DNA from: Pelagibius marinus
GTDB lineage: Bacteria; Pseudomonadota; Alphaproteobacteria; Kiloniellales; Kiloniellaceae
Assembly: GCF_014925385.1 (NCBI RefSeq)
Contig: NZ_JACSDK010000001.1
Coordinates: forward strand, 248,001 to 312,000
Reading direction: 5' to 3'
Length of the DNA: 64,000 nt
Made by a program: the position numbers and the translations under genes. The notes beneath the pieces are model-generated. The model worked only from the letters and a program-made list of their open reading frames with translations, was not told where the DNA came from and searched no databases. Shown here one piece after another: positions 22,956-39,457 of this stretch (its first letter is position 1; the number at the start of each line of letters is the position of its first letter).

Positions 22956-24284
22956 ATGTTGAGCTGGTGGCGCAAGGATCCGGAGGCCGGCCTGCCGGAG
23001 CGGGTGCGCGCAGCGGTCCGTGCCCAGGAGGACGCGACGGAGCGTCTCATCTCCTGGGTGCAGCTCGCCGTCGTGCTGACCTTCGGCACGCTTTACTTCG
23101 TCTCACCGAAACCGGAAGAGCTGGACTTCGCGCCGGTGCCCTGGGCGCTCGGCATCTATCTGGTGCTGACCCTGCTGCGCGCCGCCTGGGCGCATCTCGG
23201 CCGCCTGCCGGACTGGGCGCTGGCCGCGTCGGTCTTCGTCGACATCACCTTGCTGATGGTGCTGATCTGGTCGTTCCACATCCAGTACATGCAGCCGCCC
23301 TCGTTCTATCTCAAGGCGCCGACGCTGCTCTACGTCTTCATCTTCATCGCGCTGCGGGCGCTGCGCTTCGACGCGCGCTTCGTCGTGCTCGCCGGGCTGC
23401 TCGCCGCGCTCGGCTGGGGCGCGCTTATCGCCTACGTGGTCTATGCCGATCCCGCCGACACCATGATCACCCGCGACTACGTCGCCTACCTCACCTCCAA
23501 CACGGTGCTGCTGGGCGCGGAGTTCGATAAGATCATCTCTATCCTCGTGGTCACCGCTCTCATCGCCGTGGCGCTCTATCGGGCGAAGGGGCTGCTGGTG
23601 CGTGCCACGGCGGAAGGCAGCGCGGCGCGCGAGCTGTCGCGCTTCTTCGCGCCGGAGATCGCAGAGCGCATAACCGGCGCCGAAGACCGGATACGCGCCG
23701 GCAGCGGCGAGATGCGCGACGCGGCGATTCTCAATCTCGACATGCGCGGCTTCACGCGCCTGGCTGCCGACGCGCCGCCGGAAGAGGTCATGCAGCTGCT
23801 GCACGAATACCAGCAACGCATGGTGCCGGTGATCCAGCGCCACGGCGGCAGCATCGACAAGTTCCTCGGCGACGGCATCCTGGCGACCTTCGGCGCCGCG
23901 CAACCTTCGGACAGCTATGCCGCCGATGCGCTGCGCGCGCTGGAGGAGATCGTCGCCGTCGCGGCAGATTGGCAGGCCGACTGCGAAGCGCAGGGGCGCT
24001 ACTGCCCGCAGGTCAACGGCGCCGTGGCCACCGGCCCGATCCTGTTCGGCGCCGTCGGCGACGACACCCGCCTGGAATACACCGTCATCGGCGAGGCGGT
24101 GAACCTCTCGGCCAAGCTGGAAAAGCACAACAAGGAACTGGGCGTGCGCGCGCTCTGCGACCGCGCCAGCTACGACAAGGCGATTGCCCAGGGCTATGCG
24201 CCGGCGGCCGACAAGCCGCGCGCCGCGGCGGTCGAGGTGGCCGGGGTCGACACGCCGCTCGATCTCGTGATCATCGCGCCCTAA
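22956..24284 (+). CDS. Membrane-bound class III adenylate/guanylate cyclase
   Basis: This would make a cyclic nucleotide from ATP or GTP at the inner membrane. About six hydrophobic segments (roughly residues 31-205) precede a cytoplasmic cyclase domain. Metal-binding aspartates are Asp262 (NLDMRGFT) and Asp306 (DKFLGDG). The transition-state Asn is Asn383 in IGEAVNLSAKLE. At the next position expected to be Arg (VNLxARLE) the protein has Lys387, a conservative but notable change. The protein is 442 residues. Its last codons and stop lie in the first unit of a 27-bp tandem repeat. Confidence 0.9.
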   Translation: MLSWWRKDPEAGLPERVRAAVRAQEDATERLISWVQLAVVLTFGTLYFVSPKPEELDFAPVPWALGIYLVLTLLRAAWAHLGRLPDWALAASVFVDITLLMVLIWSFHIQYMQPPSFYLKAPTLLYVFIFIALRALRFDARFVVLAGLLAALGWGALIAYVVYADPADTMITRDYVAYLTSNTVLLGAEFDKIISILVVTALIAVALYRAKGLLVRATAEGSAARELSRFFAPEIAERITGAEDRIRAGSGEMRDAAILNLDMRGFTRLAADAPPEEVMQLLHEYQQRMVPVIQRHGGSIDKFLGDGILATFGAAQPSDSYAADALRALEEIVAVAADWQADCEAQGRYCPQVNGAVATGPILFGAVGDDTRLEYTVIGEAVNLSAKLEKHNKELGVRALCDRASYDKAIAQGYAPAADKPRAAAVEVAGVDTPLDLVIIAP

Positions 24285-24370: not shown

Positions 24371-25546
24371 CTACTTGTAGGGGTCGGCGGCGTCGCGCAG
24401 ACCGTCACCCAGGAAGTTGAAGGCCAGCACCACCAGGAACAGCGGCACCACCGGCAACAGCAGCCAGGGAAAGACCGCGACCACGGTGATGTCCTGCGCC
24501 TCGTTCAGCACCACGCCCCAGGAGGTGACCGGCGCGCGCAGGCCGATGCCCAGGTACGACAGCGCCGTCTCGCCGAGGATCGCCGTGGGAATCGACAGGG
24601 TGACCGAGGCGATCAGGTGGCTGGTGAAGCTGGGCAGCAGGTGGCGTCCGATGATGCGCGCCGGCGAGGCGCCCATCAGCTGCGCGGCGGTGGTGAAGTC
24701 CTCCTCGCGCAGCGAGAGAATCTTGGCGCGCACGGCGCGGGCGAGGCCCGGCCATTCCAGGAAGCCGATGATGATGGAGATGCCGGCGAAGACGCCGATG
24801 GGACTCCAGGTCACCGGCAGCAGCGCCGAGAGGGTCATGAACAGCGGGATCTCCGGAAAGGAGCGGATGATCTCGATGGAGCGCAGGGTAAGGGCGTCGA
24901 TGAATCCGCCGAAGTAGCCCGCGGCCCCGCCGATGACGACGCCGAGCACGAAAGAGATGGCAACGGCGATGAGGCCGATGGTGAGTGAGATGCGCGCGCC
25001 GTAGATGATGCGGCTCATCATGTCGCGGCCCAGCCGGTCGGTGCCGAAGAGGAAGGCGGTGCCGCGCTCGGCGGGGCAAAAGAGGTGCAGGTCGGCGTCG
25101 ACCTGGCCCCAGAACTTGTAGGGGTCGCCGCGGCAGAAGAAGCGCAGGGGCTGCACCTTGTCGGGGTTCGGTTTGTAGACGCGCTGCAGGTTCTCCATGT
25201 CCATCTCGGTATCGAAGCCGTAGACGAAGGGGCCGATGAATTCCCCCTCATGGAAGAAGTGCAGCGTCTGGGGCGGCGCAAAGATGTGCTGAATGTCGCG
25301 GCTGTGAAGGTTGTAGGGCGCGACGAACTCGCAGATGACGACGCTGGCATAGACCAGCAGCAGAAACACGCCCGACCACAGGGCAACACGGTGGCGGCAG
25401 AAGCGCCACCACATGATGCGCCACTCGCTGGCCCGGTAGTAACGCTCCTGTTGCGGGGTAAGCTTCTCGACCTCGTAGGGATCGAAAGGCCCGTCGTTGA
25501 CGTAGTGATCCAGGCGCTCGCCGGGCAGCAGGTCGCGGTCGCTCAT
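24371..25546 (-). CDS. Peptide-type ABC transporter permease (OppC/DppC family)
   Basis: An inner-membrane permease of an oligopeptide/nickel-type importer, 391 residues. A family N-terminus (RYYRASEWRIMWWRFCRHRVALWSGVFLLL) precedes the first membrane helix. About 150 periplasmic residues follow, longer than in most DppC proteins. The EAA loop is in EDFTTAAQLMGASPARIIGRHLLP. The true start is ATG at 25546 (MSDRDLLPGE), which overlaps the stop of the upstream permease by four bases; the frame open upstream of this is a shadow of that gene. Long-insert OppC proteins of this kind usually belong to the YejABEF-like group. Confidence 0.88.
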   Translation of the reverse strand: MSDRDLLPGERLDHYVNDGPFDPYEVEKLTPQQERYYRASEWRIMWWRFCRHRVALWSGVFLLLVYASVVICEFVAPYNLHSRDIQHIFAPPQTLHFFHEGEFIGPFVYGFDTEMDMENLQRVYKPNPDKVQPLRFFCRGDPYKFWGQVDADLHLFCPAERGTAFLFGTDRLGRDMMSRIIYGARISLTIGLIAVAISFVLGVVIGGAAGYFGGFIDALTLRSIEIIRSFPEIPLFMTLSALLPVTWSPIGVFAGISIIIGFLEWPGLARAVRAKILSLREEDFTTAAQLMGASPARIIGRHLLPSFTSHLIASVTLSIPTAILGETALSYLGIGLRAPVTSWGVVLNEAQDITVVAVFPWLLLPVVPLFLVVLAFNFLGDGLRDAADPYK

Positions 25547-26541
25547 TTCGTCGCTCCCTCGCCCAGGCGGATGCGCGGATCGAGCATCGCCAGCAGGACG
25601 TCGGAAATGAAGACGCCGATCACCACCAGTACCGCCTCGAACATCAGGAAGGCGCCGGCCAGGAACATGTCCTGACTCTGCAGCGAACGCAGCAGCAGCG
25701 GCCCGTTGGTCGGCAGGTCCATGACGATGGAGACCAGCGCCGCGCCAGAAATGACGGCCGGCAGGATCTGGCCGATGTCGGAGATGAAGTGGTTCAGCGA
25801 CATGCGCAGCGGGTACTTCACGATCGCCTTCACCGGCGAGAGGCCCTTGGCGCGCGCCGTCACGACGTATTGCTTCTGCAGCTCGTCCAGCATGTTGGCG
25901 CGCAAACGCCGGATCATGGCCGCGGTGCCGGAGGTGCCGATGACGATCATCGGAATCCACAGGTGGCTGATCACCGAGCCCACCTTCTCCAGGGACCAGG
26001 GCGCATCGAGGTACTTGGGGTCCATCAGTCCGCCGATCGACAGGTCGAACCAGACGTTGGCGTAGTAGAGCAACACCAGGGCGAAGAGGAAGTTCGGCAT
26101 GGCCAGGCCGAAGTAGCCGATGAAGGTCGCCGCGTAGTCGCCGATAGAGTACTGCCGCACCGCCGAGTAGATGCCGATGGGAAAGGAGACAACGTAGGTG
26201 AACAGCGTGGTGGAGAGGGCCAGCAGGGCGGTGAACCAGAAGCGGTCGCCGATCACCTCCACCACCGGCAGCTCGAACTCGAAGGAGTAGCCGAGGTCGC
26301 CGTGCAGCAGCCCGAAGAGCCAGACCCAGTACTGTTCGATCATCGGTTTGTCGAGACCGTACTGCTGGCGCAGGAACGCGATGCGCGCCGGGTCGACGTT
26401 CTCGCCCTGGGCCTGCATCTCGCCGATCAGGGTCTCCAGGTAGTCGCCGGGGGGCAGCTGGATGATGACGAAGACCACCAGGCTGATCACCAGCAGGGTC
26501 GGGATCATCACCAGAAGGCGTCGGGCGAAATAGCTCAGCAT
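25543..26541 (-). CDS. Peptide-type ABC transporter permease (OppB/DppB family)
   Basis: The partner permease, 332 residues with six membrane helices. It begins MLSYFARRLLVMIPTLLVISLVVF, the standard OppB start, and the EAA loop is ADMLDELQKQYVVTARAKGLSPVKAIVKYPLR-like. GLDKPMIEQYWVWLFGLLHGDLGYSF matches the conserved first periplasmic segment. It overlaps the OppC gene by four bases and starts four bases after the ATPase stop. No periplasmic binding protein gene is in this operon. Confidence 0.9.
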   Translation of the reverse strand: MLSYFARRLLVMIPTLLVISLVVFVIIQLPPGDYLETLIGEMQAQGENVDPARIAFLRQQYGLDKPMIEQYWVWLFGLLHGDLGYSFEFELPVVEVIGDRFWFTALLALSTTLFTYVVSFPIGIYSAVRQYSIGDYAATFIGYFGLAMPNFLFALVLLYYANVWFDLSIGGLMDPKYLDAPWSLEKVGSVISHLWIPMIVIGTSGTAAMIRRLRANMLDELQKQYVVTARAKGLSPVKAIVKYPLRMSLNHFISDIGQILPAVISGAALVSIVMDLPTNGPLLLRSLQSQDMFLAGAFLMFEAVLVVIGVFISDVLLAMLDPRIRLGEGATK

Positions 26542-26545
26542 GGGA

Positions 26546-28498
26546 TCAGACTTCGGCCTTCTGGGTTGCTGCGGTTGAGGACGATATCTGCGCGTAGCAC
26601 CGGGTCAGTTCCTCGGCGGCGTTCTCGTGCGCCCGCACGAAGTGGCCCTCGCCCAGCTCGATCATGGTGAGGCGGCTTTCCCCGCTGATGCGGAAGGGCT
26701 CAGGCCAGGCCCCGGGTTCCGAGGCGCGGCCCTGCAGCAGCGCGGTGAGGTCGAGGCGCTGGTCCAGGCTCGGCTCGGGCACCGCCGCCAGCAGCGCCTT
26801 GGTATAGGGATGGATCGGCGCGCGAAACAGCTGCGCGCGCGGCGCCACTTCCACCAGGCGGCCGCAGCACATCACCGCGATGCGGTCGGCGATGTAGTCG
26901 ACCACGGCCAGGTTGTGGCTGATGAAGATATAGGTCAGGCCCAGGTCGCGCTGCAGGTCCTTCAGCAGGTTCAGCACCTGGGCCTGGATCGACACGTCCA
27001 GGGCGGAGACCGGCTCGTCGCAGATCACCAGCTGCGGGTGCAGGGCGAGCGCGCGGGCGATGCCGATGCGCTGGCGCTGGCCGCCGGAGAAGCTGTGCGG
27101 GTAGCGCCGGATGTGGTTGCGGTTGAGGCCGACGACCCCCATCAGCTCCTCGACGATCTGGCGGCGCTCGGCCGCCGTGCCGACGCCGTGGATCAGCAGC
27201 GGCTCGGCCAGGATGTCGCCGACCGTCATGCGTGGATTGAGGGAGGAGAAGGGGTCCTGGAAGACGAACTGGATCTTGCGGCGGAAGGCCATCAGGTCGT
27301 CGCCCTCCAGCTTCAGCACGTCGGTCTCGCCGCCGCTCTCCTTGTCCATGTAGGTAATGCTGCCGCTGTCGGGCTTCAGCGCGCGCATGATCATCTTGGA
27401 CAAGGTGGTCTTGCCGCAGCCGCTCTCGCCAACCAGGCCCAGGCACTCGCCGCGCCGGACCGTGAAGCTGACGTCGTCGACCGCCAGCAGGCTGCCAGCC
27501 TTGTCGTTGTTGAAAAGGCCGGCCTTGCGGATGGTGAAGTTCTTGCTGACGTGCTCGACCTTCAGCAGGGTGCCGCCGCCTTGGTTGTCGTGCGCCTTGG
27601 CCTTGCCCAGGAAGGCGCTGTCGTCGCGCTGCCTGATTTCGCGGATCGGCACCAGGCGCTCGCCGGGCTTCATGTGGAAGCGCGGCACCGCGCGCAGCAG
27701 CGCCTGGAGGTAGGGGTGCTTGGGTTCGTGGAAGATGTCTTCCAGAGCGCCGCTCTCCATGACCTCGCCGTGGTACATCACCACGACCTCGTCGGCGACG
27801 TTGGCCACCACGCCCAGGTCGTGGGTGATGATCAGCACCGCCATGCCCAGCTCGGCCTGCAGGTCCTTGATCAGTTTCAGGATCTGCGCCTGGATGGTGA
27901 CGTCCAGCGCGGTGGTCGGCTCGTCGGCGATCAGCAGCGCCGGGCGGCAGACCAGGGCCATGGCGATCATGGCGCGCTGGCGCAGGCCGCCGGACAGCTC
28001 GAAGGGGTAGGTCTTCAACGCCTTGTCGGGATCCGGGAAGCCGACCAGGCGCAGCATCTCCGTTGCCAGGGCGCGGCCCTCGGCGTCGCTGACCCGGCGG
28101 TGCAGCTGCAGGGCCTCGCAGATCTGGTTGCCGACGGTGTGCACCGGCGACAGCGAGGTCATGGGCTCCTGGAAGATGATGGAAATGCGTCCGCCGCGGA
28201 TCGCCCGCATTTCGGCGCTGTCGGGGTGCAGCGCGGCGATGTCGATCATGGTCTCGGCGCGGTCGGCGGCCAGAACCGGATCGTGGAACAGAATGCGTCC
28301 GGCGTCGATGCGCGCCGTGCGGGGCAGGATGCCCATAATCGCCTGGCTGACCACGGACTTGCCGGAGCCCGACTCGCCTACCAGGGCGACGGTCCGGCCG
28401 GCGGGCACCCGGAAGCTGACGCCGCGCACTGCCTCGAGCCGGCCTTCCGGCAGATCGAAGCTGATCCGCAGATCTCTTATACGCAGCAGATCCCGCAC
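26546..28498 (-). CDS. Fused double ATPase of a peptide ABC transporter (DppD-DppF type)
   Basis: The 650-residue protein contains two complete ABC ATPase domains. Domain 1 has Walker A GESGSGKS, signature [15 protein letters not shown] and Walker [13 protein letters not shown]. Domain 2 has [24 protein letters not shown] and [12 protein letters not shown]. Both end in the oligopeptide-transporter C-terminal extension ([12 protein letters not shown] and [14 protein letters not shown]). It is the first gene of the leftward ATPase-OppB-OppC operon. Fusion of the two ATPases is known in YejF-like systems, which take up peptides such as microcin C. Confidence 0.92.
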
Positions 28499-29144: not shown

Positions 29145-29959
29145 CTGGCCTCCTCCCGCGCGAAAACGGTCGCCGCCGGCAGCAGGCGCACGGCGCGGTG
29201 GCCGGCGAGGCGGGCCAGCAGCTCGCCCAGGAAATCCCAGGCCGCGCCGTCGTGGACCAGGTGGTGGCTGAGGATGCCGCTCGGCTCGCCCGGGTCGGCC
29301 CTGCCCTGCCGCTTGGCGGCCAGGTGCCCGTTCAGCAGGCCCAGCGCGGCCTCGGTGCCCAGAAAGCGGCGCTCGGGCCGCCACTGCATGATGTCCAGGT
29401 GGCAGTTTACCTGGGGCACGCCAGGGGCCGCCTCGGCGGCGGCGCGGGCCCGGTAGGTGGAAAGCCCGGTAAAGCCGAGGCCCGGCAGGCGCGGCAGCAG
29501 CGCCGCGGCGATGCGGTTCCACGGCGGCACCAGAACCGGCAGGAAGCGCCGCCCGAAGCGGGCCGCCAGGCCCTCTTGCCCGCGGCGCAGTTCGTCCAGC
29601 ACCGCCGGCCGCCGCTGCGGGTCGATCAACTCGCACTTCTTGGCGCCCGGTTCGCCAAGGCTGCCGGCGTTGTTGGCGTGGGCGAAGCCGTGCTGCAGGA
29701 CGGCCGTCTGCGCGTCCTGGCCGTCCAGCAGATCGGCCAGGGCGTCTTCCGCCGTGGCCGGGATCACCGCCAGGGCCAGGGGCGCGGCCCGGGCGGCGGC
29801 CAGGTCGAGCAGCCGCTCCAGCGCCGGCGAGGGGGCGGCCGCATCGTCGTCGCGCCACCAGATCCGCGCCTCGCGCCCGGCCGCCGCCCAGGCGTCCAGC
29901 TCCGCCTCCAGGGCCGCCCAGGCTCCGGCCGTTCCCTTCCCTGGCGCCGGCGTCCTCAT
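29141..29959 (-). CDS. Polysaccharide-deacetylase-like protein
   Basis: A 272-residue NodB-fold candidate. RIWWRDDDA gives the acidic metal site, VLQHGFAHANN resembles the HxxxH/N-type second motif, and VPPWNRIAA is the third conserved block. ILSHHLVHD supplies the late His. Such proteins remove acetyl groups from surface or cell-wall sugars; the substrate is unknown. The start at 29959 shares one base with the upstream stop (TGATG). It lies in the overlapping glycosyltransferase operon, which supports a role in glycan synthesis. Confidence 0.78.
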   Translation of the reverse strand: MRTPAPGKGTAGAWAALEAELDAWAAAGREARIWWRDDDAAAPSPALERLLDLAAARAAPLALAVIPATAEDALADLLDGQDAQTAVLQHGFAHANNAGSLGEPGAKKCELIDPQRRPAVLDELRRGQEGLAARFGRRFLPVLVPPWNRIAAALLPRLPGLGFTGLSTYRARAAAEAAPGVPQVNCHLDIMQWRPERRFLGTEAALGLLNGHLAAKRQGRADPGEPSGILSHHLVHDGAAWDFLGELLARLAGHRAVRLLPAATVFAREEAR

Positions 29960-31146
29960 CAGGCGGCCTCCTTCATCCGCGAGACAAGGTGGCGGGCGGT
30001 TTCCTCGGCGCCGTCCAGGCGGAAGGGGGTCTTTCCGTGCGCGCCGCCCTGGGGCAGCGCCTTGGCGATGCCGGCGGCCAGGCTTTCCGGGGACAGGCCG
30101 TCCTCGGCAACGACGGTGATCAGGTCGTTCTCCGCCAGCATCCGGGCGCGCTGAAGCTGCTCGGTCTCGGTGCCGCCGGCGAAGGGCACGATCACCGCGG
30201 GCACGCCGCTGGCCAGGACCTCCATCAGGGTATTGTAGCCGCCCTGGCTGATCGACAGCCGGGCCCGGCTCAACAGGGCGACGAAGTCGGGCCGCGCCCG
30301 CTCCACGGTGACGCCTTCCGGGGCCGTCTCGGCGATGGCCCGGAATTCCGCTTCGGGCAGGTTGGGACCGATCAGCAGGCGCCAGGGCGCCGCGGCCAGG
30401 GGCGACAGCGCGCGCGCCGCCAGGGCGGTGCGCAGCAGCGCCGCGCCGACGGCGCCGCCGCCGGTCGACACGACGACCTCGCCGCGCCCCGTGGTGTCGT
30501 CCGCGCGGCGCGCGGCGGCGACGGCCCGGCCGGCTTCGGTCACATAGCCGGTGTAGTGCAGGCGCCGGGCAAGCGCGTCGCATTCCGGGAAGCTGTCCTC
30601 CAAGCGGAAGAAGCGCGGGTCGCCGTGCATGTAGACGATGTCGAACTGCCGGGTGAAGCGGTCGATCATCCAGGCGGCCTTCTCCGCGCTTTCCGGCCGG
30701 ACGACGACGTCGCGCAGGGAGCAGGCGATGAGCGCCGGCGGGCTGTCGGCGCGTGCCGCCTCGATCAGGGGGTCGAGTTCGAAGCGCATCTTGCGGCGGC
30801 CGAAGGGATAGAGCTCCGTCATCACGACCCTTGGGCGGCAACGCCGGTAGACCTCCAGCAGCAGCGCGCGCCGCCGCGCCTTCCAGGCCTCGTCGATGGG
30901 CCGGCCGTGCTCGTCCAGGATGACGGCGAAGCTTTCATCCTGGGCGCGCGCCGGGGGCAGCTGCACCACCTCGACGTCCTCCAGGCCCAGACCGCCGACC
31001 GGCAGGCCGCCGGTGACGAAGACCACCTTCAGCCCGGCGCGCCGGAAGGCGCGGGCCAGCACCGCGGCGCGGCGGACATGCCCGATGCCGAGCAGATGCT
31101 GCACGTAGAGCAGGACGTCGACTCGTTCGGGGGCGCGTTCGGTCAT
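29959..31146 (-). CDS. Glycosyltransferase, MurG/GT28-like
   Basis: A 395-residue cytosolic or membrane-edge glycosyltransferase. The N-terminal LLYVQHLLGIGHVRRAAVLARAF is the glycine-rich motif of GT-B enzymes. The C-terminal SISQGGYNTLMEVLASGVPAVIVPFAGGTETEQ is the nucleotide-sugar site typical of MurG/GT28. MTERAPERVD at 31146 is the start, overlapping the phosphatase stop by four bases. It is paralogous in layout to the gene at 34235-35464 in the same operon. Confidence 0.87.
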   Translation of the reverse strand: MTERAPERVDVLLYVQHLLGIGHVRRAAVLARAFRRAGLKVVFVTGGLPVGGLGLEDVEVVQLPPARAQDESFAVILDEHGRPIDEAWKARRRALLLEVYRRCRPRVVMTELYPFGRRKMRFELDPLIEAARADSPPALIACSLRDVVVRPESAEKAAWMIDRFTRQFDIVYMHGDPRFFRLEDSFPECDALARRLHYTGYVTEAGRAVAAARRADDTTGRGEVVVSTGGGAVGAALLRTALAARALSPLAAAPWRLLIGPNLPEAEFRAIAETAPEGVTVERARPDFVALLSRARLSISQGGYNTLMEVLASGVPAVIVPFAGGTETEQLQRARMLAENDLITVVAEDGLSPESLAAGIAKALPQGGAHGKTPFRLDGAEETARHLVSRMKEAA

Positions 31147-31745
31147 GAGGCCTGTAGGGGCATGTTGAGGGTGTCGATTGCGGGCTGGCCGCCGGCGGCC
31201 AGGGTAAAGGCCTGGGCGCAACCGTCGCGCAGTTTCACCGGCGGCTTGGCGCGCATGTCCCAGCCTGAGGCCAGGGCGTAGACCGCGCGGATCACGCCCT
31301 TGTGGGTCACCGCGACGACGGTGCCTGCGCTCCCGGTGGTCTCTTGGGCCAGCTTCGTCAGCAAGGGCCGCAGCCGCTGCTGCACGTCGCGCGGGCTCTC
31401 GCCGCCGGGCGGGCGGAAGTCCAGGCCGCGGGCCTCGTTGTCGGCCATGTCGGGCCCCAGCTCATCGCGCAGCTCGGCCAGACTGCGCCCTTCCCAGGCG
31501 CCCCAGTCGGTCTCGATCAGCAGCGGTTCGCTGTCCACCGGCGCGCCGCGCAGGATCTCGGCGGTGTCGCGCGCGCGGGTCAGCGGGCTGCAGATCCAGC
31601 GGGCGCCCGCGGCCTCGGGCGGCAGCCGCCAGCTTTCCACCGCGGCGCGGCCGGCCGGCGACAGCGGCGGGTCGCTGCGCCCCTGGATGCGCCCGGCCTC
31701 GTTCCAGGCGGTCGCCCCGTGGCGGATCAGCAGCAGGCGGCTCAA
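31143..31745 (-). CDS. Histidine phosphatase family protein
   Basis: A 200-residue phosphoglycerate-mutase-fold phosphatase. RLLLIRHGATAWNEAGRIQG contains the catalytic RHG, SPLTRARDTAEIL the second Arg, ETDWGAWEGRSLAEL the general acid Glu and VAVTHKGVIRAV the final His. The start is TTG at 31745, whose TTGA overlaps the stop of the upstream glycosyltransferase; no in-frame ATG lies near. In a glycan operon it might dephosphorylate a sugar or lipid-linked intermediate. Confidence 0.87.
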   Translation of the reverse strand: MSRLLLIRHGATAWNEAGRIQGRSDPPLSPAGRAAVESWRLPPEAAGARWICSPLTRARDTAEILRGAPVDSEPLLIETDWGAWEGRSLAELRDELGPDMADNEARGLDFRPPGGESPRDVQQRLRPLLTKLAQETTGSAGTVVAVTHKGVIRAVYALASGWDMRAKPPVKLRDGCAQAFTLAAGGQPAIDTLNMPLQAS

Positions 31746-32872
31746 GGGTTGCTCGCTTCGTCCAGGATGGCGCTGAGGCGCTTGGCGGCGGCGGTCAGGC
31801 TGTGCTGCTCGGCGATCACCCTGGGGGCGGCCCCGCCCATGGCGATGCGGCTCGCTTTCTGGGACAGCATTTCGCGCACGCTGGCGGCGAAGGTGGCCAG
31901 GCCCGGATCGGCCAGGTAGCCGGTGACGCCTTCGGCCACCACGTTCTCGACGCCCGGGCTGCGCCCGGCGACCACGGGGATGCCCGCGGCCTGCGCCTCC
32001 AGCAGGGCCATGCCAAAGGCCTCGTTCACGGCCGGCCAGACCAGCAGGTCGCAGGCGGCATAGAGCGGCGGCATGACCTCCGGCTGGACAAGGCCCAGGA
32101 AGCGCACCCGCCCCGGCATCGCCCAGGTGAAGGCCTGGACCACGGCGTCGTAGGCCTGGCCCTCCCCGGCCACCACAAGCTGCCAGGGAATATCGGGAAT
32201 GGCGCGCAGCGCCTGGGCCAGGATCTGGTAGGACTTCAGCTTGTCGCCCGGGCGCATCATGGCCGCGGCCAGCAGCCAGGGAAGTTCCGGGTCCAGGTGC
32301 TGCTCGCTGGCCAGCACCGCCCGGTAGTCGTCGCGCAGCGGCCGCACCGCGTCGAAGGGGGCGGTATCGATGAAGGGCTTCAGCGGGCGCACCTTGGCCT
32401 GATCGGGGATCAGCTTGGCGTCCAGGGGGTTGAGGGTGATCACCGCCGCGGCCTGCTCCAGGGCCGCCAGCACCGCCTTGTGGCCCACCGCCCAGGGGCC
32501 TTCGGCCCGCTTGTAGGCGACCGAGGCCTCGGCCACCACGTAGGGGATCTTCAGGGCCTTGGCCACCTTGGGGCCGATCCAGTCCGGCGCCTTGTAGTAG
32601 AGGTGATAGGTGAACCACAGCTGCGGGCGGCGGCGCGCCGGCAGCTTCTTGTAGCGGCGGATCAGGCGGTCGGCGAGCTTCGTGCCCAGCGCCTGCAGAC
32701 GCGCCTGGCGGCTGCTGTCCCCCTCGCCCTCGCGGCTGCGCAGGCGGCTGGCCAGCTCCACGTCGTGGCCGGCCTGCTCCAGCGCCTGGAGGAACATGCG
32801 CGCCATCTTCCGGTCACCCGACGGGTTGGGGTGGGTCGGCGGCTTCAAGGGGGCGTAAAACGCGATGCGCAT
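31742..32872 (-). CDS. Glycosyltransferase family 4 protein (first)
   Basis: A 376-residue GT-B enzyme starting MRIAFYAPLKPPTHPNPSGDRKMARMFLQALEQAGHDVELAS. The C-terminal donor site reads PPLYAACDLLVWPAVNEAFGMALLEAQAAGIPVVAGRSPGVENVV, with the EX7E-type glutamates (E..FGMALLE). Donor and acceptor are unknown. It overlaps the phosphatase gene by four bases and lies 37 bp after the next GT4 gene of the operon. Confidence 0.9.
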   Translation of the reverse strand: MRIAFYAPLKPPTHPNPSGDRKMARMFLQALEQAGHDVELASRLRSREGEGDSSRQARLQALGTKLADRLIRRYKKLPARRRPQLWFTYHLYYKAPDWIGPKVAKALKIPYVVAEASVAYKRAEGPWAVGHKAVLAALEQAAAVITLNPLDAKLIPDQAKVRPLKPFIDTAPFDAVRPLRDDYRAVLASEQHLDPELPWLLAAAMMRPGDKLKSYQILAQALRAIPDIPWQLVVAGEGQAYDAVVQAFTWAMPGRVRFLGLVQPEVMPPLYAACDLLVWPAVNEAFGMALLEAQAAGIPVVAGRSPGVENVVAEGVTGYLADPGLATFAASVREMLSQKASRIAMGGAAPRVIAEQHSLTAAAKRLSAILDEASNP

Positions 32873-32909: not shown

Positions 32910-34238
32910 TTACTCGGCGGCCTCGCGCCCGAGGGGCGGCGGCAGAAGTTCCGCCAGGCAGTCGATGCCGCTCTTCATATCAAAGTCCGCCCGGATGCGC
33001 TGCTGTCCCGCATCTCCCAACCGGCGCCGCTCGGCCGGCGCGGCGATCAGGCGGGCCAGCGCGGCGGCCAGCGCCGCCGGGTCCTCGGGCGGCACCAGGG
33101 CGCCGCTGGCCCCGTCCTCGATCAGCTCGGGGATGGCCGCGACCCGGGTGGCCAGGCAGGCCAGGGCCTGACTCTGGGCCTCCATCAGCACGTTGGGCAG
33201 GCCGTCGCGGTCGCCGTCGCGGGCGATGCGGCTGGCCAGGACGAAGAGGTCGGCCGCGCGGTACTGCGCCAGGATTTCCGTCTGCGCCTGGCTGCCCATC
33301 CAGGTGATGCGGCCGGCTAGGCCCAAGGCGGCCGCCTGGCGTTCCAGCGCCCCGCGCAGCGGACCGCCGCCGATGTGGGTCAGCCGCCAGTTCAGGGCCT
33401 CCGGCAGTTCGGCCAGGGCCTGCAGCAGCACATCGTAGCCTTTCTTTTCCACCGCCCGGCCCACCGAGAGCAGGCGCACCGGCTGTGCCGGGTCGCTCCC
33501 GTCCCGCAGATCCCCGGCGCGTGGCGCGGCGGCGAAGCGGGCGAGGTCCAGGCCGTGGTAGAGCAGGCGGACGCGCCCCGGCCCGGGGTCCGCTTGGGGC
33601 GCCAGGGCGCGCAGGTGATCGGCCCCGAAACGGGTGCAGGTTACCAGCCATTCGGCCTCGGCCAGCTTCTCGCGCTTTTCCCACGCCGGGATGGTCCAGA
33701 TGTCCTTGGCGTGGGCGGAGACGCTCCAGGGCAGGCCGGTCATCAGGGCGGTATAGCGCGCCACCGAGGCGGGGGTGTGCAGGAAATGGGCGTAGAGCCA
33801 GGTGACCTCCGCCGGCAGTTCGGCGGCCAGCACGCAGGCCTGGCCGAAACGGCGCGGGCGGTTCGGCGTCCGGTCGCGCCACAGGTCGCGCAGGAAGGCG
33901 CGCCGCGCCGCCGCGTAGCCGGGCAGGCGCCGGGCCCGCCACCAGCCGCGCAGCACGCGCAGCGGTTCCTGGTAGAGATATTCCGGCAGATAGCTGACCG
34001 GGGCGCGGATCTCGTCGTGCACCGGGTGGCGCTTGCGGTCGGTGGGATGGCGCATGGAAACGAGGCGCAGCGTGAAGCCACGGCGCTCCAGGGCCAGGAT
34101 CTCCTGGGCGATGAAAGTCTCCGACAGGCGCGGGTAGCCCTTGAGGACCACGGCCACGGCGCCCGGGTCTTGCTGGGCCCGGCCAACCGGCCTGTTGCGT
34201 TCCTCGGTCATTTCGGCGGGCACGAAGGCTGCAGTCAC
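32910..34238 (-). CDS. Glycosyltransferase family 4 protein (second)
   Basis: A 442-residue GT4 enzyme of the colanic-acid-type pattern: AVVLKGYPRLSETFIAQEILALERRGFTLRLVSMRHP at the N-terminus. The donor site is LFVLASRIARDGDRDGLPNVLMEAQSQALACLATRVAAIPELIEDG. The extended N-terminal segment with HFLHTPASVARYTALMTGLPWSVSAHAKDIW is typical of exopolysaccharide GT4 enzymes. It overlaps the first gene of the operon by four bases. Confidence 0.9.
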   Translation of the reverse strand: MTAAFVPAEMTEERNRPVGRAQQDPGAVAVVLKGYPRLSETFIAQEILALERRGFTLRLVSMRHPTDRKRHPVHDEIRAPVSYLPEYLYQEPLRVLRGWWRARRLPGYAAARRAFLRDLWRDRTPNRPRRFGQACVLAAELPAEVTWLYAHFLHTPASVARYTALMTGLPWSVSAHAKDIWTIPAWEKREKLAEAEWLVTCTRFGADHLRALAPQADPGPGRVRLLYHGLDLARFAAAPRAGDLRDGSDPAQPVRLLSVGRAVEKKGYDVLLQALAELPEALNWRLTHIGGGPLRGALERQAAALGLAGRITWMGSQAQTEILAQYRAADLFVLASRIARDGDRDGLPNVLMEAQSQALACLATRVAAIPELIEDGASGALVPPEDPAALAAALARLIAAPAERRRLGDAGQQRIRADFDMKSGIDCLAELLPPPLGREAAE

Positions 34239-35464
34239 AGCCGTCCCTTGCTCGGGGCTTCGGCGACGCTCAGCTTGCTGGCGCCGTGTTCCAGCCAGTA
34301 TTCGGCCAGGCGCACGACGTTCTCCGGACCGTCCAGCAGCCCCGGCACCACCACTTCCGACGGCTGGCGCTGCTGCGGCAGGTTGCGCAGCGCCGTGGCC
34401 ATAAGGTGGGGGTTGCGGGCGCCGTCGTCGCGCAGCATGCGCACCAGGCCCAGGTCCTGCGCGCGCGATGCGCGGATGTGCTGTTCCATGCGCGGCTTGG
34501 TGCGCGGAATCACCAGGGCGCGCTTGTCGAAGGACAAAACCTCGCAGAAGGTGTTGTAGCCGCCCATGCAGACCACGCCGATGGCACGGTCCATCAGGCT
34601 TTCCAGATGGGTCTCGAAGGTCACGGTCTCGACGTTGTTCAGCTGCGCTGCGCGCGCCTGGAAGCTGCTCTGGGCTTCGCCGTTCATGAAGGGTCCGAGC
34701 ACCAGCAGCGCCGGGTGGGGCAACTGGGGGTCGCTTTCATAGGCGCTCAGCACCCAGTCGATGATGGCCTCGCCGTCGCCGCCGCCGCCGACGGTGACCA
34801 GCAGGAAGGGATCCTCGATCTTCTCCAGCACCAGATGGGAATGGACCTTCGGCAGCCGGCGCCGGAGGTAGCCGGTGTAGGTCATCTTCTTGCGAACGGA
34901 ATCCGGCAGGTCGATGCCTTCCAGGGGATCGCAGATCTGCGGCAGCCCATAGACCCAGATGTCGTCGAAGTAGCGCTGCAGGGCCGGGACCACCTGCTTG
35001 CGCTCCCACTCCGGCGCCAGCAGGCCGGGCTCGTCCATCACGTCACGCAGGCCCAGCACGCAGGGCGTGCCGCGCTCGCGCAGCATGGCCAGCGTGCCCT
35101 CCACCTCGCCGCGCAGGCCCAGCGGCTCCTTGTCGACGATGAACAGGTCGGGGTCGAAGGCCTCTGCGGTGTGCTCGATGATCGAGGCCCGCATGGCCAT
35201 GGTCTGCTCGACGTCGATGTGCAGCGCCAGCGAGGTATAGTCGCCGTTGCGCAGCTTGATCACCCCCGGCACCCGCACGAAGTCGACGCGGGAGCGGAAA
35301 TCGAAGGATCCGATGATCGGCGAGCCGGAGAGGATGAGCACCGAAAGCGAGCGCTGCGCCTCCGCCAGGGTATGGGCGATTTCGCGGCAGCGCCGCAGGT
35401 GGCCCAGACCGAAGCTGTCGTGGCTGTAAATAAGGACACGCTTGCCTTTTCGGCTGTCCTGCAT
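34235..35464 (-). CDS. Glycosyltransferase, MurG-like
   Basis: A 409-residue protein and the first gene of the leftward glycan operon. RVLIYSHDSFGLGHLRRCREIAHTL is the N-terminal GT-B loop, and VVCMGGYNTFCEVLSFDKRALVIPRTKPRMEQHIRA is the C-terminal donor-binding motif. It shares this architecture with the gene at 29959-31146, though the two are well diverged. The 228 bp upstream separate it from the divergent pseudo-ABC operon, so both promoters lie in that gap. Confidence 0.87.
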   Translation of the reverse strand: MQDSRKGKRVLIYSHDSFGLGHLRRCREIAHTLAEAQRSLSVLILSGSPIIGSFDFRSRVDFVRVPGVIKLRNGDYTSLALHIDVEQTMAMRASIIEHTAEAFDPDLFIVDKEPLGLRGEVEGTLAMLRERGTPCVLGLRDVMDEPGLLAPEWERKQVVPALQRYFDDIWVYGLPQICDPLEGIDLPDSVRKKMTYTGYLRRRLPKVHSHLVLEKIEDPFLLVTVGGGGDGEAIIDWVLSAYESDPQLPHPALLVLGPFMNGEAQSSFQARAAQLNNVETVTFETHLESLMDRAIGVVCMGGYNTFCEVLSFDKRALVIPRTKPRMEQHIRASRAQDLGLVRMLRDDGARNPHLMATALRNLPQQRQPSEVVVPGLLDGPENVVRLAEYWLEHGASKLSVAEAPSKGRL

Positions 35465-35692: not shown

Positions 35693-38401
35693 ATGGAACC
35701 GAACATTTTCAAGTACGTATGGCGCCACAGCCGGGCCGAGCAGTTGGTGATCCTGCTGCTGGTGGTGGTTTCGCTGCCCTTCTACTACTTCTCCCTCAAT
35801 CTGCCTAAGCAGATCGTCAATGAGGGCATCCAGGGCCAGGGCTTCGAATCCCCGGGGTCGACCCAACCGATCTTCCGCTTCGACCTGCCCTACGGCGAAG
35901 AACTCTTCGGCGCTCCGGTCACCCTCTTCGACGGCATCGACCTGGTGCAGCGGGACATGCTGCTGGCGCTCAGCTTCTCCTTCCTGGCGCTGGTCTGCGT
36001 CAACGGCATGTTCAAGCTGGTGATCAACACCCGCAAGGGGCGCATGGGCGAACGCCTGCTGCGCCGTCTGCGCTTCGAGCTTGCCGACCGCATCCTGCGC
36101 TTTCCGCTGCTGCACCTGAAGCGCGTGAAACCGTCTGAAATGGCCACCATGATCAAGGACGAGGTGGAGCCGCTGGGCGGCTTCATCGGCGACGCCTTCG
36201 CGACGCCCCTGTTCCTCGGCGGCCAGGCGGCCACGGCCATGCTGTTCATCATGGTGCAGTCGTTCTGGCTGGGTCTGGTGGCGGCGGGCGTGGTGATGTT
36301 CCAGTCTTTCCTCATCCCGCGGCTGCGCCGGCGCATCCTGGTGCTCGGCCGCGAGCGTCAGCTCACCGCGCGCCAGCTTGCCGGGCGCATCGGCGAGATC
36401 ATTGACGGCGGCGTCGAGGTCCAGGCCAACGACGCCAGCAACTTCGAGCGCGCCGACCTGGTCTCGCGCCTCGGGCACATCTACAAGATCCGCTACGAGA
36501 TCTATCAGAGGAAGTTCTTCGTCAAATTCCTCAACAACCTGCTGGCCCAGATGACGCCCTTTGTGTTCTACGCCGGCGGCGGCCTGCTCGCGATCTCCGG
36601 CCACCTGGACATCGGCGCCCTGGTGGCGGTGATCGCCGCCTACAAGGACCTGCCCTCGCCGATCAAGGAACTCATCGACTGGGACCAGCAGCGCCTCGAC
36701 GTACAGATCAAGTACGAGCAGGTGATCGGCCAGTTCCAGCCGCCGCAGCTCATTGACGCGGCCCTGCAGTCACCGGACAACGAGCCCGGCCCGCCGCTGG
36801 CGGGGGAAATCACCGCCTCCGCCCTGACGCTTCTCGACGAGACCGACCAGCCGCTGCTGCGCGCCGTCAACTTCACCGTCGGCGTCACCCAGCACGTAGC
36901 CGTCGTCGGCCCCAGCGGCAGCGGCACCGAGCAGCTCAGCTACATGCTCTCCGGCCTGGTCTGGCCCAGCTCCGGCAGCCTGCGCATCGACGGCCGTGAC
37001 ATCGAGCGGCTGCCCGCGGCGGTGACCGGCCGGCGCATGGCCTATGTGGGCCCCAGCGCCTATCACTTCCCGGGCTCGCTGCGCGACAATCTGCTCTACG
37101 GCCTGAAGCACCGGCCGGTGCGCCCGGCCGAGTCCGATCAGGCGGCCGGCCACGACTTCCTCGCCGAGGCCAAGCGCGCCGGCAATCCGGACCTCGACAT
37201 CAACGCCGACTGGATCGACTACGCCGCGGCGGGCGCCGAGGGTCCGCAGGACATCAACGCGCGCCTGCTGGACGTGCTCGACGTCGTCGACCTGAAAAGC
37301 GACGCCTACCGCTTCGGGCTGACCGGCACCATTGATCCCGAACGCAGCCCCGAAGTGGTCGAGGGCGTCCTCATGGCCCGCGCCGCGTTGATCGAACGCC
37401 TGACGTCCGGCGGCAACGACGACCTCGTCGTGCGCTTCGAGGCCGACAGCTACAACGGCAACGCCAGCGTCGCCGAGAACCTGCTGTTCGGCACGCCGCG
37501 GGTGCCGGAGTTCGCCTCCAAGGCGCTGGCCCAGAACGGCACCGTCGCCGCCGTGCTGCGCGAGGCCGAACTGACGGAGGCCTTCGTCGGCATGGGCGTC
37601 ACCATTGCCAAGACCATGGTCGAGATTTTCGCGGACCTGCCGCCGGGCCACCCCTTCTTCGAACAGTTCAGCTTCATCAGCGACGACGACCTGCCGGAGT
37701 TTCGCACCATCATCACGCGGGTCGAAAGCGCCGGTGTCGAGGCCCTCGACGAGGCAGCGCGCAAGCTGCTGCTCGGCTTGCCCTTCAACTACGTCGAGGC
37801 GCGCCACCGCCTGGGTCTGGTCGACGAGGCCATGGCCGAACGTCTGGTCGCCGCGCGCCACCGCCTGGCCGAGCGCCTGGAGCGGGACCTGCCCGATGCC
37901 GTTGAGTTTTACCGCGCCGACGCCTACAACGCGGCCGCCTCGCTGCAGGACAACATCCTCTTCGGGCGTCTCGCCTTCGGCCAGGCCGGCGCCGAGCAGA
38001 TCATCGGCGACACCCTGGCCGAGGTGCTGGACGACCTGGGCCTGCGCGAAACGGTGATCGAGGCCGGGCTGGACTACAACGTCGGCCTGGGCGGCGGCCG
38101 TCTCAGCGCCATCCAGCGCCAGAAGCTGGCCCTGGCCCGGGCGCTGCTGAAGCGCCCCGATCTGCTGATCATCAACGGGGCGACCGCGGCCATGGACGGC
38201 GCCGGACAGCAGCGCCTGGTCGAGCGCATTCTCGACCTGCGCGAGGGACAGGGCGTCATCTGGGTGCTGCAACGCCCTGAGCTGGCGTCGCTTTTTGACA
38301 CCATCCTCGTCATGCGCGACGGTCGCCTGGTCGAGCAGGGCAGCTACGGTGAGCTGACCAAGAGTGAATCGGCCTTCAAGGACCTGGTCGCAGCGGAATA
38401 G
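35693..38401 (+). CDS. ABC-exporter-like protein with degenerate ATPase and large insertion
   Basis: The 902-residue protein has the layout of an ABC half-exporter: hydrophobic segments from residue 17 to about 310, then a nucleotide-binding-domain fold. Every key ATPase position is altered. Walker A is GPSGSGTE (Lys to Thr412), the Q-loop Gln is Pro454, the signature is LSAIQ (804-808), and Walker B is LLIINGAT (Asp to Asn828, catalytic Glu to Gly829). The H-loop His is Gln860. About 280 extra residues separate the Q-loop region from the signature. In this stretch an xxNxLxxG element recurs: at about 464-470, 594-600 and 752-758. The frame is unbroken, so it is not a decayed gene. ATP hydrolysis is unlikely. 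GAGG precedes the ATG by six bases. A cNMP-binding gene and a methyltransferase follow. Confidence 0.85.
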   Translation: MEPNIFKYVWRHSRAEQLVILLLVVVSLPFYYFSLNLPKQIVNEGIQGQGFESPGSTQPIFRFDLPYGEELFGAPVTLFDGIDLVQRDMLLALSFSFLALVCVNGMFKLVINTRKGRMGERLLRRLRFELADRILRFPLLHLKRVKPSEMATMIKDEVEPLGGFIGDAFATPLFLGGQAATAMLFIMVQSFWLGLVAAGVVMFQSFLIPRLRRRILVLGRERQLTARQLAGRIGEIIDGGVEVQANDASNFERADLVSRLGHIYKIRYEIYQRKFFVKFLNNLLAQMTPFVFYAGGGLLAISGHLDIGALVAVIAAYKDLPSPIKELIDWDQQRLDVQIKYEQVIGQFQPPQLIDAALQSPDNEPGPPLAGEITASALTLLDETDQPLLRAVNFTVGVTQHVAVVGPSGSGTEQLSYMLSGLVWPSSGSLRIDGRDIERLPAAVTGRRMAYVGPSAYHFPGSLRDNLLYGLKHRPVRPAESDQAAGHDFLAEAKRAGNPDLDINADWIDYAAAGAEGPQDINARLLDVLDVVDLKSDAYRFGLTGTIDPERSPEVVEGVLMARAALIERLTSGGNDDLVVRFEADSYNGNASVAENLLFGTPRVPEFASKALAQNGTVAAVLREAELTEAFVGMGVTIAKTMVEIFADLPPGHPFFEQFSFISDDDLPEFRTIITRVESAGVEALDEAARKLLLGLPFNYVEARHRLGLVDEAMAERLVAARHRLAERLERDLPDAVEFYRADAYNAAASLQDNILFGRLAFGQAGAEQIIGDTLAEVLDDLGLRETVIEAGLDYNVGLGGGRLSAIQRQKLALARALLKRPDLLIINGATAAMDGAGQQRLVERILDLREGQGVIWVLQRPELASLFDTILVMRDGRLVEQGSYGELTKSESAFKDLVAAE

Positions 38402-38510: not shown

Positions 38511-38960
38511 ATGAGCATCGACCAAGAAGTGGAGATCCTGCGGCGCATACCGATTTTCGCGAAGATCGACCCGCCGAAGCTGAAGCTGATGGCCTTCGCC
38601 AGTGAGCGGGTGACCTACAAGCCGGGGCAGACGCTGTTCAAGCAGGGCGAAAGGGGGGACGCGGCCTTCATTGTCCTGCACGGCACGGCCGATGTACTGA
38701 TCAACGCGGCCAACGGCCCGCTGCGCGTCGCCTCCCTCTCGGAAAACGAGATCATCGGCGAGATCGCCATTCTCTGCGATATCCCGCGCACTGCCACGGT
38801 TCAGGCGGCGACCGAGCTGACGACCTTGAGGATCACGGCCGAGCTTTTCTTCCGCATGATCATGGATTTCCCCGAAATGGGGGTCGAGGTGATGCGCGTG
38901 CTGGCGCACCGCCTGGAGCAGACCACCGCCCAACTGCGCGAAGTGCAGGCGGCGCGGTGA
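38511..38960 (+). CDS. Single-domain cyclic-nucleotide-binding protein
   Basis: A 149-residue protein consisting of one CAP_ED domain with no DNA-binding or enzymatic partner domain. The phosphate-binding cassette is intact: GEIAILCDIPRTATV (residues 83-97), including Glu84 and Arg93 that contact cyclic phosphate and ribose in known members. It is therefore likely to bind cAMP or cGMP. GGAG lies upstream of ATG 38511. Its stop overlaps the methyltransferase start by four bases. Its place directly after the pseudo-ABC gene suggests it controls that protein in trans. Confidence 0.88.
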   Translation: MSIDQEVEILRRIPIFAKIDPPKLKLMAFASERVTYKPGQTLFKQGERGDAAFIVLHGTADVLINAANGPLRVASLSENEIIGEIAILCDIPRTATVQAATELTTLRITAELFFRMIMDFPEMGVEVMRVLAHRLEQTTAQLREVQAAR

Positions 38961-39457
38961 GCCGCCTGGACAGTTTTCTGCGCCGTCTCCAGGCGCAGCG
39001 GGACTGCCTCAACGTCGCCGTCGCCATGATCGCCAAGGTGCCGGGCCCGATCTTCGAGCTCGGCCTGGGCAACGGGCGGACCTACGATCACCTGCGCGAG
39101 GCCTGCCCGCGGCGGGAAATCTTCGTCTTCGAGCGCCAGGTCTCCGCTCACCCGGACTGCATTCCCGATGCGGCGCACTTGCTGAAGGGCGATGTCGGCA
39201 AGAGCCTGGCGGCGGCGCAGCAGCGCTTTGCCGGAACAGTGGCCCTGGCGCATGCCGATCTGGGCAGCGGCAATCCGCCGCGCGATGCCGAGACCGCGGC
39301 GATGATCTCCGCCCGCCTGCCGGCCGTGATGGCGCCCGGGGGCGTGATCATTTCGGATCAGGAACTAACTTTGCCCCAGGCCGAGATCCTGCCGCTGCCG
39401 CCGGGCGTACAGGCAGGGCGCTACTTCATGTACCTCTGGCCGAAAACGGCGGATTAG
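38957..39457 (+). CDS. Small class I SAM-dependent methyltransferase
   Basis: A 166-residue protein starting with GTG at 38957 inside the previous stop. The SAM-binding loop is FELGLGNGRTYDHLRE, followed by the acidic strand-2 end FVFERQVSAHP. VALAHADLGSGNP and LPAVMAPGGVIISDQEL complete a Rossmann-like methyltransferase outline. It is short for the superfamily and the substrate is unknown. It is the third gene of the pseudo-ABC operon. A 12-bp palindrome CCGTACGTACGG follows the stop at 39458-39469. Confidence 0.8.
   Translation: MSRLDSFLRRLQAQRDCLNVAVAMIAKVPGPIFELGLGNGRTYDHLREACPRREIFVFERQVSAHPDCIPDAAHLLKGDVGKSLAAAQQRFAGTVALAHADLGSGNPPRDAETAAMISARLPAVMAPGGVIISDQELTLPQAEILPLPPGVQAGRYFMYLWPKTAD

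Follow-up and report, generated by a model that had tools for sequence, protein, structure and literature searches.

In ATP-binding cassette (ABC) exporters, ATP closes the dimer of nucleotide-binding domains (NBDs), and the transmembrane (TM) domain is moved via coupling helices. SUR (ABCC8/9) binds nucleotides, and to our knowledge neither it nor CFTR (ABCC7) has a cyclic-nucleotide-binding subunit. The accessible portion of PMC7756269 describes both proteins as using the ABC fold for gating or regulation and not for pumping, with CFTR hydrolysing ATP at one site and holding it at the other. According to the accessible text of PMC10986499, the ABC exporter HetC of Nostoc PCC 7120 carries an N-terminal cyclic-nucleotide-binding domain (CNBD) that can bind ppGpp, has a peptidase domain and needs an ATPase catalytic residue. 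MsbA2 of Sinorhizobium meliloti is an ABC exporter linked to neighbouring glycosyltransferases (available part of PMC3687685). Here we analyse a 64,000-nucleotide stretch of the Pelagibius marinus genome (the window; contig NZ_JACSDK010000001.1, positions 248,001 to 312,000), which encodes an ABC-exporter-like protein at 35693-38401 on the forward strand and, directly after it, a stand-alone CNBD protein (Table 1). We propose that the two represent an ABC-exporter-fold family that is probably independent of ATP and controlled by a cyclic-nucleotide-binding subunit.

The family resembles the described systems only in part. It has the TM domain and complete NBD fold in common with type IV ABC exporters (MsbA, Sav1866, TM287/288, PCAT1), but none of the 162 proteins has a complete ATP site, the NBD carries an insertion of about 280 residues and the score is far under the MsbA cut-off. 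CFTR, with its one hydrolytic site, is unlike the family, as is HetC in its catalytic residue, its peptidase domain and the N-terminal place of its CNBD, although HetC likewise combines an ABC exporter with a CNBD. SthK, the Mesorhizobium loti channel and the PKA/PKG regulatory domains rank among the solved structures closest to the partner CNBD; in those proteins the CNBD acts on a K+ channel or a kinase, whereas in the family the partner is an ABC fold.

A scan of bacterial genomes returned at least 562 stretches with similarity at E values up to 1e-3, a set that may include ordinary ABC transporters. The best 80 of these (the near relatives) all have open frames that match the window protein from residue 1 to at least residue 880, share the insertion and are 48-80% identical to it; some of their records carry the label of Betaproteobacteria bins. 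A profile of the insertion only (A2), built from 34 rows, matches 132 of 385 sampled genomes of the same class, only some candidates per genome having been scored, and 31 of 398 genomes in a phylum-wide draw, all 31 from the same class. One weak match (G322; E 5e-4, 1.4 Mb genome) probably arose by chance. The window's own genome has one full-length copy of the gene (150 of 242 candidates scored); in two other genomes, G154 and G331, three and two divergent copies fused to a CNBD were observed (L152-L154 and L155-L156, respectively). From 176 proteins collected, 14 were dropped because an identical 300-residue stretch was already in the set, leaving an alignment of 162 that includes the window protein. 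None of the Pfam, NCBIfam or PADLOC models matched gives the family a name, and the literature searched, with most subscription papers and preprints outside reach, holds no account of it or of an ATP-dead ABC exporter with a CNBD.

The original prediction, made from the letters of the window alone, described a protein in which every catalytic motif was lost, with Thr412 in the place of the Walker A lysine, Pro454 for the Q-loop glutamine, LSAIQ as signature, Asn828/Gly829 in Walker B and Gln860 for the H-loop histidine. Translation agrees on every point, and the frame runs intact through 902 codons to a stop. Complete loss describes the window protein but not the family, in which relatives keep up to four of the six catalytic residues (K, S/T, Q, D, E, H); maximal retention is seen in 9 proteins, and 32 keep none. 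The Walker A lysine is present in 93 of 162 proteins, the following Ser/Thr in 15 and both in 4; the Q-loop glutamine is kept in 49, the Walker B aspartate in 34, its glutamate in 77 and both in 5, the H-loop histidine in 22 and the D-loop aspartate in 143. The window protein stands at the far end of a family-wide gradient. GxxGxGK[ST] occurs in none of the 162, either at the aligned site or anywhere in the sequences, and LSGGQ in none at the aligned position. When whole sequences were searched, a looser [AG]x4GK[ST] was found in 6 proteins (4 at the aligned Walker A) and LSGG[QEM] once, inside the TM region, and no family protein had a P-loop together with LSGGQ. By contrast, four exporters of the window's genome (L003, L004, L005 and L012) have GxxGxGK[ST], LSGG[QE] and the Walker B Asp-Glu pair.

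The catalytic columns rank at conservation percentiles 3-50, calculated over 902 columns from 106 proteins of less than 80% identity. The ratio of nonsynonymous to synonymous substitution (dN/dS) between the window gene and five close relatives is 0.21-0.31 overall, 0.20-0.34 in the insertion and 0.23-0.59 in the NBD part before it, and the gene is evidently under purifying selection. Sequencing error or a decaying pseudogene, which would have created the substitutions artificially or recently, is ruled out by these ratios and by the 80 relatives that share the insertion, and a lone degenerate paralogue is ruled out because all 162 proteins compared are degenerate. A search of the 162 for homologues with intact motifs came back empty. 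As expected from the window protein alone, the family's domain should not hydrolyse ATP, given that GxxGxGK[ST] and LSGGQ are absent from all 162. Since the loss is universal among the proteins compared, parsimony places it before the family's last common ancestor.

The fold itself has been kept. The ComA NBD aligns to the structure model over all 239 of its residues, at 1.7 A, and the TM region of the model aligns to ABC exporters; whole-chain matches have a large root-mean-square deviation and do not place the insertion. The Pfam model ABC_membrane scores 25 bits against the window protein, under its cut-off of 28, and among five relatives scanned it scores 65.8-88.4 bits in L178, L136, L150 and L120 and 27.2 in L141. 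The best NCBIfam model is MsbA, at 156 bits against a cut-off of 602. By sequence and model together, the protein belongs to the ABC-exporter fold, with the NBD fold kept and the TM domain homologous. The TM domain has a mean majority fraction of 0.61, the same as the first repeat unit at 449-475, with other parts at 0.40-0.56. Within it, residues 157-172 and 322-334 are conserved, contain Pro/Gly and charged residues and are modelled with low confidence, and could form a gate or substrate site.

The insertion consists largely of a repeat. The three short elements seen by the original prediction lie where it placed them, although its pattern xxNxLxxG was one letter too long: each element has seven residues and reads xxNxLxG. 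Its suggestion of a duplicated Q-loop region is borne out by profile matches between units that span about 75 residues, longer than the element itself. With hhalign, unit 2 matches unit 3 at 98.8% (E 8e-16, residues 563-640 against 722-797), and unit 1, in its best cut, matches units 2 and 3 at 92.5% and 92.7%. Another cut of unit 1 gives 84.3% and 74.8%, and a short cut 6.0% and 11.1%; the unit tails compared alone match weakly (2.7-73%), and global alignments score lower still. The protein has three copies of the pattern [DE]N[LI]L[YF]G, and at least one copy arose in just 12 of 20,000 shuffles; the loose xxNxLxG also occurs three times, against a shuffle mean of 0.29, with three reached in 14 of 5,000 shuffles. 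The element columns N466, N596, N754, G600 and G758 are at conservation percentiles 92-99 (the asparagines at 97-99) and G470 is at 77. By sequence and model, the insertion is an internal repeat of the Q-loop and the stretch that follows it, in which three N-L-L-F-G elements are held, and from the profile matches and the secondary-structure order of the full model each unit seems to resemble the Q-loop/helical-subdomain segment.

The CNBD gene begins 109 bases downstream of the ABC-like gene. All 80 near relatives have a CNBD homologue downstream on the same strand, with approximate gaps of -4 to 315 bases. At 96 further loci, several of which share genomes and one of which (L098) is the window itself, the CNBD gene lies next to the ABC gene in 66 and the CNBD is joined to the C-terminus of the ABC-like protein in 18; no CNBD was found in 11, and 1 is unclear. 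In a tree with 82 family members and four canonical exporters as a long-branched outgroup (86 rows), made by a quick method with Shimodaira-Hasegawa-like approximate likelihood ratio (SH-aLRT) support only, the 12 fused rows group as a single clade (SH-aLRT 95) and the rows without a CNBD need two changes. Seven loci (L141, L143-L146, L161 and L189; family f71) are fast-evolving and have no CNBD alongside; their signature and Walker B are further changed and the elements are kept.

Residues 83-96 of the CNBD protein are what we take to be the cyclic nucleotide monophosphate phosphate-binding cassette. G83, R93 and A95 are present in 81 of 81 homologues and E84 in 77, with Asp in the other 4, and the pattern G-E...R-[ST]-A is present. 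The nearest solved relatives are kinase regulatory domains, followed by SthK and Crp-type proteins. A C-terminal DNA-binding helix-turn-helix was not found in the CNBD protein of the window (149 residues) or its S. meliloti counterpart (154 residues), in both of which PF00027 stands alone; an annotated S. meliloti record labels the pair an ABC transporter ATP-binding protein and a Crp/Fnr family transcriptional regulator.

Across the 385 genomes, at a threshold of E up to 1e-30 for the CNBD profile (A4), the CNBD profile matches 130, the ABC profile 132 and both 125, and the CNBD profile matches 5 of the 253 genomes without an ABC match. Seven genomes have the ABC match only. Three of these (G022, G154, G331) hold divergent fusions whose CNBD scores under the threshold; G255 is 63% complete, the G367 contig ends within the gene, the G322 match is the weak one mentioned above, and the seventh is G108. 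In G283 a CNBD was seen elsewhere in the genome with no ABC gene adjoining. The CNBD protein, its cassette intact in most members, is the partner of the ABC-like protein, whether adjacent, fused or at least in the same genome. Neither this partnership nor the family-wide loss of the ATP site was recognised in the original prediction.

A class III cyclase is found in 131 of the 132 ABC genomes versus 118 of 253 others. The sole ABC genome without one, G108, has no CNBD-profile match either; there, a glycerophosphodiester phosphodiesterase gene directly follows the ABC gene (L168), with no CNBD. The window's genome has 32 class III cyclase matches in 5.4 Mb, so the nearness of an open reading frame with a weak class III cyclase domain (22956-24284, forward strand; PF00211, 30.9 bits), about 12 kb upstream of the pair, is unremarkable, and it was not used as evidence. 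The ligand would most likely be cAMP or cGMP; since the HetC CNBD binds ppGpp (PMC10986499, accessible part), it need not be a cyclic nucleotide, and cCMP, cUMP or ppGpp are possible.

The usual pairing or fusion with a CNBD, taken with the dead ATP site, suggests that a signalling molecule, and not ATP, is the controller. Tentatively, we picture a cyclic-nucleotide-gated ABC protein in which ATP has been abandoned at both sites, the CNBD subunit controls, and the repeated Q-loop/helical-subdomain segment serves as the coupling device (one possible arrangement of several). The ABC-like protein would act as a dimer in the manner of ABC half-exporters. In ABC exporters, the contact between NBD and coupling helix is close to the segment that follows the Q-loop, and the three elements may join the dead NBD to the TM domain at additional points. 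The CNBD would dock onto the NBD, and ligand binding would switch the dimer between states, replacing the job of ATP. For a product or precursor of the glycosyltransferases near most close relatives, the TM domain might then serve as a gated path or as a regulator; the conservation of this domain, that of residues 157-172 and 322-334 included, points to a path or gate.

In the window, four glycosyltransferase genes lie upstream of the ABC-like gene in divergent orientation, and in other lineages glycosyltransferases are found on differing sides and strands. At 40 distant loci, a GT28-type gene is present in 12 and a GT4-type gene in 12. The original prediction had the protein acting as a scaffold, gate or sensor in glycan export: the CNBD partner supports a sensor, and glycosyltransferases do flank the locus, but the link fails in the fused forms. 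No GT28- or GT4-type gene was found in the stretches examined at fused loci (13 of the 40 distant loci), which weighs against a universal glycan role.

Several further observations count, like that one, against control by the CNBD of an ABC fold tied to glycan synthesis. Ten of 56 near loci have neither glycosyltransferase type in the fetched stretch. The pair is separable: five genomes (G025, G175, G271, G323, G376) have the CNBD match only, with short ABC-profile matches just upstream in G376 and G271 that may be remnants, and in three f88 genomes the CNBD homologue lies elsewhere (225-230 bits, next best about 60), among its customary neighbours (glycosyltransferases, a methyltransferase and exonuclease III) but apart from the ABC gene. 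Cassettes are altered in some distant members: the Arg is missing from L142 (identical in position to L188) and the Glu from L148/L163, L166 and L170, and L176 and the f24 fusions diverge after the Arg. Finally, genome size and kinship confound the cyclase correlation; of the few genomes listed as having neither gene, most are small.

The arrangement in the three f88 genomes, where CNBD, methyltransferase and glycosyltransferases stay together though the ABC gene is elsewhere, and the persistence of the glycosyltransferase linkage across several gene arrangements would also suit a membrane scaffold or regulator that transports nothing, the dead ABC dimer anchoring the enzymes and the CNBD timing their activity. 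We consider this unlikely, though worth keeping in view: the TM domain is conserved as highly as any part (0.61), apparently beyond the needs of a mere anchor, and glycosyltransferases are nearby in 0 of 13 fused loci. The protein could instead be the degenerate half of a heterodimeric exporter of the TM287/288 type, its active half being encoded elsewhere, which seems very improbable. The degenerate sites known to us from heterodimeric exporters retain Walker A together with further site residues. A canonical exporter with TM domain and NBD occurs in the flanks, the only regions searched, of just 2 of 120 loci (L016-L095 and L152-L191). In favour of this reading, TM287/288-type exporters do have one degenerate nucleotide-binding site (PMC7756269, accessible part). 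A machine that still binds ATP or hydrolyses it slowly with unusual residues is the least probable alternative, for although the Walker A lysine (93/162) and D-loop aspartate (143/162) often persist, the catalytic columns drift, Ser/Thr after the lysine place (15/162), Lys with Ser/Thr (4), Walker B Asp-Glu (5) and His (22) are rare, and the window protein has none of these four.

Besides the CNBD gene, the ABC-like gene has other recurrent neighbours. The methyltransferase is found at 53 of 72 near loci with more than 1.5 kb downstream versus 1 of 40 distant loci. When the neighbours of 71 chosen loci, out to a distance of 6.5 kb, were grouped into similarity clusters, which may mix families, CNBD genes were found at 47 loci (fused ones not counted), GT28-type genes at 37 and GT4-type genes at 35; the components of an Opp-type importer (ATPase, SBP_bac_5 and two permeases) and a histidine phosphatase were found at 18-20 loci each, these clusters being identified by Pfam from one member of each. 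In the window, Opp-type importer genes (OppC, OppB and a two-domain ATPase; 24371-28498, reverse strand) lie near the glycosyltransferases, and a similar importer stands beside some relatives that belong to other lineages. A role in anti-phage defence was considered and set aside: in PADLOC the ABC protein matched one model, of ATPase type, and its partner matched CNBD models of Pycsar type, which we take as general domain similarity, with no wider search of defence context.

Table 1. Positions in the window of the ABC-like gene, its domains and motifs, and neighbouring genes.
Feature	Coordinates	Strand	Details
ABC-exporter-like protein, 902 aa: TM domain and catalytically degenerate NBD with large insertion	35693..38401	+	
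TM domain, residues 1-345, well conserved; low-confidence stretches 157-172, 322-334	35693..36727	+	
Walker A position, residues 406-413, GPSGSGTE (Thr412 at Lys place)	36908..36931	+	
Q-loop position, residue 454 = Pro	37052..37054	+	
Repeat unit 1 with long tail, residues 449-562	37037..37378	+	hhalign, secondary structure
Element 1, RDNLLYG, residues 464-470	37082..37102	+	N466 in 158/162
Repeat unit 2, residues 563-721	37379..37855	+	hhalign against unit 3
Element 2, AENLLFG, residues 594-600	37472..37492	+	N596 in 162/162
Repeat unit 3, residues 722-802, runs on into signature region	37856..38098	+	hhalign, secondary structure
Element 3, QDNILFG, residues 752-758	37946..37966	+	N754 and G758 in 162/162
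ABC signature position, residues 804-808, LSAIQ	38102..38116	+	
Walker B position, residues 824-829, LLIING (Asn828/Gly829)	38162..38179	+	
H-loop position, Gln860	38270..38272	+	
Stand-alone CNBD protein, 149 aa	38511..38960	+	Pfam cNMP_binding 1.2e-18, sole Pfam domain
Putative CNBD phosphate-binding cassette, residues 83-96	38757..38798	+	Conserved G83, E84, R93, A95
S-adenosylmethionine (SAM) methyltransferase (Methyltransf_17), overlaps CNBD gene end	38957..39457	+	
GT28-type glycosyltransferase, divergent	34235..35464	-	Homologue in 46/56 near loci with >4 kb upstream
GT4-type glycosyltransferase	32910..34238	-	Homologue in 43/56 near loci
GT4-type glycosyltransferase	31742..32872	-	
GT28-type glycosyltransferase	29959..31221	-	

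Strains of Sinorhizobium meliloti contain the ABC-like and CNBD pair. The family member there is not MsbA2, since it lies at 841.7-845.0 kb of pSymB and the msbA2 operon is placed near 938 kb of pSymB (PMC3687685, available part). On pSymB of S. meliloti 1021 (L194, 14944-17710) the ABC gene was observed in two frames, and in strain RCAM1750 (L192) in a single frame. As these strains have the pair, the proposal is directly testable in them. ABC proteins are defined by their ATP cassette. If the proposal is true, roughly one in three genomes sampled from the class (132/385) would encode a natural ABC fold that operates without ATP, which would raise the question of what an ABC fold does once its motor is removed. 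It would also be a membrane target for bacterial cyclic-nucleotide signalling and, if cyclic-nucleotide control is shown, a new way of running the ABC fold within the ABC superfamily.

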